From the NCBI GenBank assembly GCA_036674765.1, contig JARVKI010000026.1, forward strand, positions 1-64,000: a stretch of DNA of 64,000 nt, written 5' to 3'. A model generated the notes under the pieces. The model saw nothing but the letters and a program-made list of their open reading frames with translations, did no database searches and had not been told where the DNA came from. The translations under genes and the position numbers were made by a program. The DNA is from Seiridium cupressi (Eukaryota > Ascomycota > Sordariomycetes > Amphisphaeriales > Sporocadaceae). Below are positions 33,201 through 60,395 of this stretch, in pieces (position 1 is the first letter of the stretch; every line of letters starts with the position of its first letter).

Positions 33201-33551
33201 CGAGAAGGGCCCAGTCAACGTAGAATGAAACGCCCGTGTAGCCGAGAGCCTTGACCTTCTGAAAAACATCAAGCCATAGATCGGGAACCGGAAGTCGCCA
33301 TGGATGAAACTCGCCCGAGTAAAACATGATCCGCTCACCGCGCACGAAGAGGGAATGTTCATCCCATGTTATCTGAGCTAGTCAGCTGGCTGGGTCTCCA
33401 TGAAAGACGTGGACCAACCCACTAGATCTTGAAGCGCTTCTCGTTTTCCAGAATCAACGACTCTGTACACCTGACCGCCGAGCGAGAGTCCAAGGACAGA
33501 AGCATAGCAGAACGAAGCTAGGCACAAGGTGATTTCCTTTAGGGAGAACAT
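30292..33551 (-). CDS. lacA: Secreted beta-galactosidase, glycoside hydrolase family 35
   Basis: Five exons: 33551-33423, 33372-32760, 32705-32537, 32490-32382 and 32328-30292, 1018 residues, as expected for fungal LacA-type enzymes (about 1000). The N-terminus is a signal peptide ([21 protein letters not shown]). The catalytic barrel follows ([42 protein letters not shown]). The acid/base Glu sits in AENEY (about residue 198) and the nucleophile in AITEFQGGA (about 295). [22 protein letters not shown] marks the barrel end, and beta-sandwich domains fill the rest. It hydrolyses terminal beta-galactosides outside the cell. Intron four (32329-32381) has a GCAAGT donor, CACTGAC branch and CCAAG acceptor. 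The family is certain; which LacA paralogue is not. Confidence 0.93.
32329..32381 (-). other. GC-AG intron in the beta-galactosidase gene
   Basis: A 53-nt intron beginning GCAAGT instead of GTAAGT. The exons on both sides join in phase to give [15 protein letters not shown], the conserved GH35 block. A CTGAC branch sequence lies about 13 nt before the acceptor. Reading through would meet a stop (TGA), so splicing is required. Confidence 0.85.
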
Positions 33552-60225: not shown

Positions 60226-60263
60226 GCCCGGTTAGCTCAATTGGTTAGAGCGTTGGACTTTTA

Positions 60264-60288
60264 CGGCTTCAATCCCGATGCCGCTGCA
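60264..60288 (+). other. Canonical tRNA intron (position 37/38)
   Basis: 25 bases between A37 and A38 of the anticodon loop. Its first four bases CGGC can pair with GCCG at 60280-60283. This is the standard site cut by the tRNA splicing endonuclease. Confidence 0.85.
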
Positions 60289-60297
60289 ATCCAAAGG

Positions 60298-60356
60298 GTA
60301 AGCTCCATTCATACTGGGTCGCAAAGTGTATACGTGATGACTAACAATAACTTCAG
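60298..60356 (+). other. Spliceosomal-looking intron in the tRNA variable loop
   Basis: 59 bases starting GTAAGC and ending CTTCAG, with a TGACTAACA branch-like sequence at 60338-60346, about ten bases before the AG. Length, donor, branch and acceptor all match the pre-mRNA introns in this window (for example the 50-60-nt introns at 46080 and 50300). It lies between tRNA positions 46 and 47. No clean bulge-helix-bulge placing both junctions in bulges was found by eye. Confidence 0.75.
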
Positions 60357-60390
60357 CTGCGAGTTCGACCCTCGCATCGGGCGAAACATC

Positions 60391-60395
60391 TTTTT
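60391..60395 (+). terminator. RNA polymerase III terminator of tRNA-Lys
   Basis: Five T residues starting 8 bases after the discriminator base, the standard stop signal for Pol III. It supports the tRNA being transcribed as an ordinary Pol III gene. Confidence 0.85.

Follow-up and report, generated by a model that had tools for sequence, protein, structure and literature searches.

The window analysed here, a stretch of 64,000 nt of Seiridium cupressi DNA (contig JARVKI010000026.1, positions 1 to 64,000), contains a complete tRNA-Lys(UUU) gene at 60226-60383 that is interrupted by two inserts of 25 nt and 59 nt. Using cmscan, a tRNA was called at 60226-60383 over the whole model (44.8 bits, E 1.3e-7) with both inserts scored as insertions, confirming the original prediction of a tRNA-Lys(UUU) gene with inserts at 60264-60288 and 60298-60356. 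All features of the gene lie on the + strand. Exon 1 (60226-60263) carries positions 1-37 with 20a and has the anticodon TTT at 60260-60262. It is followed by a canonical tRNA intron of 25 nt between positions 37 and 38 (60264-60288), placed both by reading of the sequence and by cmscan. Exon 2 (60289-60297, ATCCAAAGG) carries positions 38-46 and is separated by a spliceosomal-type intron of 59 nt between positions 46 and 47 (60298-60356) from exon 3 (60357-60383), which carries positions 47-73 (CT, the T arm, the 3' acceptor strand and G73). The internal promoter elements of tRNA genes are the A box and the B box. The A-box region (positions 8-19) was read from the sequence at 60233-60244 and the B-box region (positions 52-62) at 60362-60372, the B box starting 129 bp past the A box because both introns intervene. 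The gene is followed by a T5 run at 60391-60395, a likely Pol III terminator, as had been proposed.

Removal of both inserts left 21/21 stem pairs (acceptor 7, D 4, anticodon 5, T 5), a variable loop of AGGCT and a G at position 73, in agreement with the 5-nt variable loop, full stems and G73 expected from the original prediction. Once joined, the exons form the cloverleaf of a nuclear tRNA gene, in which the T loop is conserved and the GG of the D loop and the discriminator are in place. Without the second insert the Levitt pair A15-U48 is regained. When analysed with ARAGORN the joined exons were identified as tRNA-Lys(ttt). The gene with both inserts kept was read as Ile, the gene with only the second insert removed was read as Glu, and a scan of the whole window called no tRNA. 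The insert boundaries were compared with six intronless tRNA-Lys(CTT) genes found in the genome, five aligned in the + orientation and the sixth read on the other strand. Their variable loop AGGCT is identical to the spliced Lys(UUU) loop, and where the window gene reads AAGG, 59 nt, CTGCG, the Lys(CTT) genes read AAGGCTGCG. Lys(UUU) differs from the five aligned genes at 10-13 positions plus one gap, with every stem still kept. The GT-AG placement restores the isoacceptor loop and a shift by one base gives the same product, making it one of two equivalent placements.

A second gene with an insert at this site was found in the same genome (45.36 Mb, 228 contigs). A generic tRNA search, in which 63 of 1321 candidates were scored, returned 65 matches, the window Lys gene being absent among the matches listed. 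Eighteen matches were on contig C174, taken as mitochondrial with its dense tRNAs, and 47 were nuclear. Only one of the nuclear matches was longer than 101 nt, an elongator tRNA-Met(CAT) gene of 157 nt at C13:124207-124363 (the other 46 were 101 nt or less). The gene was noticed by this length, prior to any use of intron motifs. It has an intron at 37/38, and a further insert of 52 nt (GTTCGT...ACTAAC...TAG) lies between G46 and U47, the same site as the Lys insert. In two paralogues (C20:493098- and C185:7534-) AAGG runs straight into TCG, with 0 nt in place of the 52 nt of the C13 copy. The insertion is therefore exact relative to two uninterrupted copies for Met, and for Lys the comparison was with isoacceptors only. 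The interrupted Met exons differ from those of the nearest paralogue at 1/74 positions and from the other paralogue at four, while the 37/38 introns of the C13 copy and its nearest paralogue differ by 3 mismatches and 6 gap columns over 37, as expected for exons under constraint. The single substitution relative to the nearest paralogue turns a T-stem pair into G-U. The Met stems keep 20/21 pairs, the exception sitting in exon parts identical in both paralogues, removal of the insert restores the Levitt pair G15-C48, and a T4 run follows the gene. Given the Met gene one base short, ARAGORN read the full gene as Met and the half-spliced one as His. About 240 bp from the interrupted Met gene (L031:508-664) there is a tRNA gene at 908-992 on the opposite strand, with anticodon TGC by eye.

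Both 46/47 inserts were compared with the fungal intron consensus in the accessible part of PMC5832005, GTRWGT, RCTRAY and YAG with 6-36 nt between branch and acceptor. Both have GT...AG ends and a donor near the consensus, GTAAGC...CAG in Lys and GTTCGT...TAG in Met, the latter donor being weak. Each also carries the branch motif ACTAAC with its A 12 nt from the intron end, inside the consensus range; in the Lys gene the branch-site motif CTAAC is at 60341-60345 and the putative branch A is at 60344. Counting against a spliceosomal reading, the Lys donor is off GTRWGT at +6 and the Met donor at both +3 and +4. The exons before the inserts also end in AAGG^, where the textbook form is MAG^. 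As far as the accessible text of PMC5832005 goes, nearly all off-consensus U3 donors deviate at one position only, and the two departures of the Met donor are more than nearly all of those donors show. How often such signals arise was estimated with a pattern looser than the consensus (GTNNG...CTRAY...AG, with the A 7-30 nt before the end), which was found on both strands of the window in 7/127,882 stretches of 59 nt and 12/127,896 stretches of 52 nt, counts that include any true introns. As the Lys boundaries have two equivalent placements, the chance probability may be doubled. GT-AG ends arising by chance in two inserts appear unlikely on these counts.

A beta-galactosidase coding intron at about 33372-33414 of the window (minus strand), which reads GTGGGT...CTGAC...CAG by eye, offers a model for mRNA introns in this fungus. 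It was the only coding intron that could be placed by homology, the beta-galactosidase ORF being 93% identical to a Seiridium cardinale protein. A UFD1-like ORF of the window is 99% identical to a Seiridium cupressi protein, and both matches agree with a source in or close to Seiridium (Sordariomycetes, Sporocadaceae). A set of coding introns assembled from the window gave 5 candidates vs 2 in a reversed control and was set aside for this weak contrast. A multi-copy introner element was considered as a source of the inserts and rejected, the Lys insert matching only itself in the genome at E up to 10. Alignment of the Lys and Met inserts scored 26 vs 16.2 +/- 5.6 for 500 shuffles, indicating no clear kinship.

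In a partial census of the genome at least two tRNA genes, Lys and Met, carry a spliceosomal-type insert at 46/47. A broad intron-in-tRNA pattern gave at least 142 matches, and the three of these scanned that lay outside the later patterns contained no tRNA. The 25 matches to a CTAAY pattern were made up of the two known cases, a 72-nt uninterrupted tRNA (L133), one match on C174, four tRNA genes of 105 nt that have an intron at 37/38 and are Ser(AGA) by eye, and 17 matches without a tRNA. A CTGAY pattern gave 48 matches, and the 18 examined included one tRNA (L112), with an anticodon-loop insert only. A D-arm pattern (54 matches) allowed too small a gap, and neither of the known genes was among its matches; a revised version had both among its 47 matches, the other 45 being judged by eye on partial strings. 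A GTAG pattern gave 64 matches, 16 of which were judged by eye. Anticodon-loop introns were common among the tRNA genes seen, and a 106-nt tRNA gene in L065 with a 39-nt anticodon-loop insert was ordinary in this respect. At L065:1436-1538 (minus strand) there is a tRNA resembling Ile(AAT) with a T-stem mismatch and a low score (45 bits), perhaps a decaying tRNA gene, and a second tRNA gene in L065 lies at 985-1090. An initiator-like tRNA-Met(CAT), by eye, with a short anticodon-loop intron was seen at L138:22-110 (C27:270770-270970). When relatives were sought with the 46/47 tRNA arrangement, three scans of viral contigs gave no match, and a single scan of genome contigs gave two chance matches in bacterial DNA.

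Whether the window gene is the only tRNA-Lys(TTT) gene, a question raised with the original prediction, received a divided answer. In a partial check of the genome it was the only gene found with both a Lys-type body and a TTT anticodon, but a gene with a different body also bears TTT. A TTT pattern with up to 3 mismatches matched 61 places vs 84 in a reversed control, and 19 + 8 of the 61 were scanned, C99:98227 (which reads CTTTTA) being outside the scanned set. The second TTT-anticodon gene, at C41:354628-354718 (L042), has a 19-nt anticodon-loop intron, a D stem of GCGC and A73. It differs from the window Lys gene by 18 mismatches and 5 gaps and has a body unlike the Lys genes of the genome. 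Because this gene exists, the window Lys gene need not be indispensable.

Taken on gene anatomy and splice signals, it is probable that two tRNA genes each gained a U2-type spliceosomal intron at the same position, that the spliceosome removes these introns, and that the Sen endonuclease takes the other intron. This suggests that one tRNA would need two different splicing machines to be finished. The original prediction had offered three readings, and two of these, a spliceosome acting on a Pol III transcript and an inserted pre-mRNA intron, are together best supported given the Met case and its intron-free paralogues. In the Lys gene a U2-type GT-AG intron would have entered the variable loop between G46 and position 47, by reverse splicing or by insertion at the DNA level. 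Pol III would transcribe the gene from its widely spaced internal A and B boxes, as is established for tRNA genes, the spliceosome would excise the 46/47 intron as its sequence signals indicate, and the Sen tRNA endonuclease and tRNA ligase would remove the 37/38 intron in the ordinary, established way. It is also reasonably likely that the spliceosome matures Pol III tRNA precursors in this fungal lineage, that at least two tRNA species need both the spliceosome and Sen, and that 46/47 is a recurrent site of gain.

Alternatively, the inserts could be genuine spliceosomal-type introns in young tRNA pseudogenes that are no longer matured, with uninterrupted genes supplying the cell. We consider this unlikely. 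Two uninterrupted Met genes and the TTT-anticodon gene on C41 do exist, and the Met copy has the one substitution that makes a T-stem G-U. However, the stems are intact in both hosts (Lys 21/21; Met 20/21 with the exception common to both paralogues), the Lys stems are kept although the gene departs from Lys(CTT) at 10-13 positions, both inserts carry splice signals, and the C41 gene differs in body and is of uncertain identity.

The remaining one of the readings first offered is a non-canonical tRNA intron with GT-AG ends by chance, for which the Sen endonuclease would do the cutting and tRNA ligase the joining. It is very improbable. Extra tRNA introns of this kind have precedents, among them a variable-loop intron in the archaeon Thermofilum (from a title cited in PMC3978253) and, in the literature available in part, ectopic introns in a red alga and in a nucleomorph, many of the nucleomorph ones having no defined bulge-helix-bulge. 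Sen introns sit at 37/38 in eukaryotic nuclear tRNA, and the second inserts here are at 46/47. The Lys and Met precursors were assessed for a bulge-helix-bulge at the 46/47 junctions using pairing scores and cloverleaf-enforced folds, and none was found at either; a folding test of this kind had been suggested with the original prediction. Whichever boundary placement was taken, the flanking exon helix reached 1/3 pairs in Lys and 1-2/3 in Met. In the central helix no more than 3/4 pairs formed for Lys (shifted placement) and 2/4 for Met. With the cloverleaf enforced, the junctions lay outside facing 3-nt bulges. The Lys 37/38 intron, which served as the one control, reached 3/3 in the outer, 2/4 in the central and 3/3 in the inner helix, and the strict motif was absent there too. 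As the central helix of the control reached only 2/4 and that of the Lys second insert up to 3/4, this helix does not discriminate and the test rests on the missing flanking helix. A non-canonical intron also leaves the GT, branch motif and AG of two inserts unexplained.

That a Pol II transcript, the spliceosome's usual partner, happens to cross the tRNA gene and yields a spliced product not used as tRNA is highly implausible, for although the locus is overlapped by stop-to-stop frames (113 and 117 codons), which are no evidence of a gene, the intron falls precisely between one tRNA position and the next, tertiary pairs return once it is removed, the genes are on two contigs, and T runs follow both (T5 for Lys, T4 for Met).

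For spliceosomal removal of the 46/47 inserts, the nearest Pol III precedent is the presence of spliceosomal introns in fungal U6 genes. U6 is a Pol III transcript and is itself a part of the spliceosome. The likeness is a GT-AG intron in a Pol III transcript, whereas the hosts here are tRNA genes, which also need the tRNA endonuclease. Titles cited in PMC5832005 likewise point to U6 introns. In the Seiridium genome three whole-model U6 matches of 101-115 nt had no intron-sized insert (47 of 2623 candidates scored). Fungal U3 snoRNA introns, in the accessible part of PMC5832005, are alike in interrupting a small structured RNA, in having intron-bearing and intron-free paralogues in one genome, in their clustered positions and in the same motifs, but U3 is not a tRNA; according to the same text, no small structured RNA other than U3 and U6 is known to contain an intron often. 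The ectopic introns of lichen rDNA (PMC8527467, available in part) are also short spliceosomal introns in non-Pol II transcripts, and yeast excised a 57-bp lichen intron placed in its rDNA, but these are in rRNA made by Pol I. Archaeal and red-algal non-canonical tRNA introns share an extra intron outside 37/38, in one archaeal case in the variable loop, and differ in being removed by the endonuclease at a bulge-helix-bulge, though that motif is undefined for many nucleomorph introns in the text available. To our knowledge they do not have GT-AG ends and branch sites.

No non-canonical tRNA intron in fungi was reported in the available portions of the literature on such introns. The accessible text of the tRNAscan-SE 2.0 paper (PMC8450103) limits eukaryotic tRNA genes to one intron, and that of PMC13149111 describes tRNA splicing as independent of the spliceosome. 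A spliceosomal intron in a tRNA gene was not reported in the literature searched, partly accessible and with few subscription papers or preprints, which is not proof of absence, nor in the available parts of PMC13148404 and the yeast genome review PMC5499181. If the spliceosomal interpretation is true, Pol III transcripts that are short and structured are within reach of the spliceosome, and the Met gene and its intron-free paralogues would provide a clean case of intron gain. Genes of this kind could then be overlooked or misassigned by tRNA finders, as Lys was by ARAGORN, although it named Met.

Folding of the precursors was also considered as a sign that the second intron is removed early, but the argument was weak and was dropped. 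The unspliced Lys precursor had a best fold that was non-cloverleaf (-46.8 kcal/mol, z -1.25 vs shuffles; -43.9 with the cloverleaf enforced), and a near-cloverleaf fold returned with the second insert removed. The Met precursor folded freely at -42.9 and enforced at -33.9, and its best fold was still not a cloverleaf after removal of the second insert. In the Lys gene the branch motif CTAAC (60341-60345) is complementary to GTTAG of the D loop and A box (60244-60248), a region that is base-paired when the Lys precursor folds freely. Both motifs are present in the Met gene too, and the complementarity is probably a coincidence of two consensus sequences.
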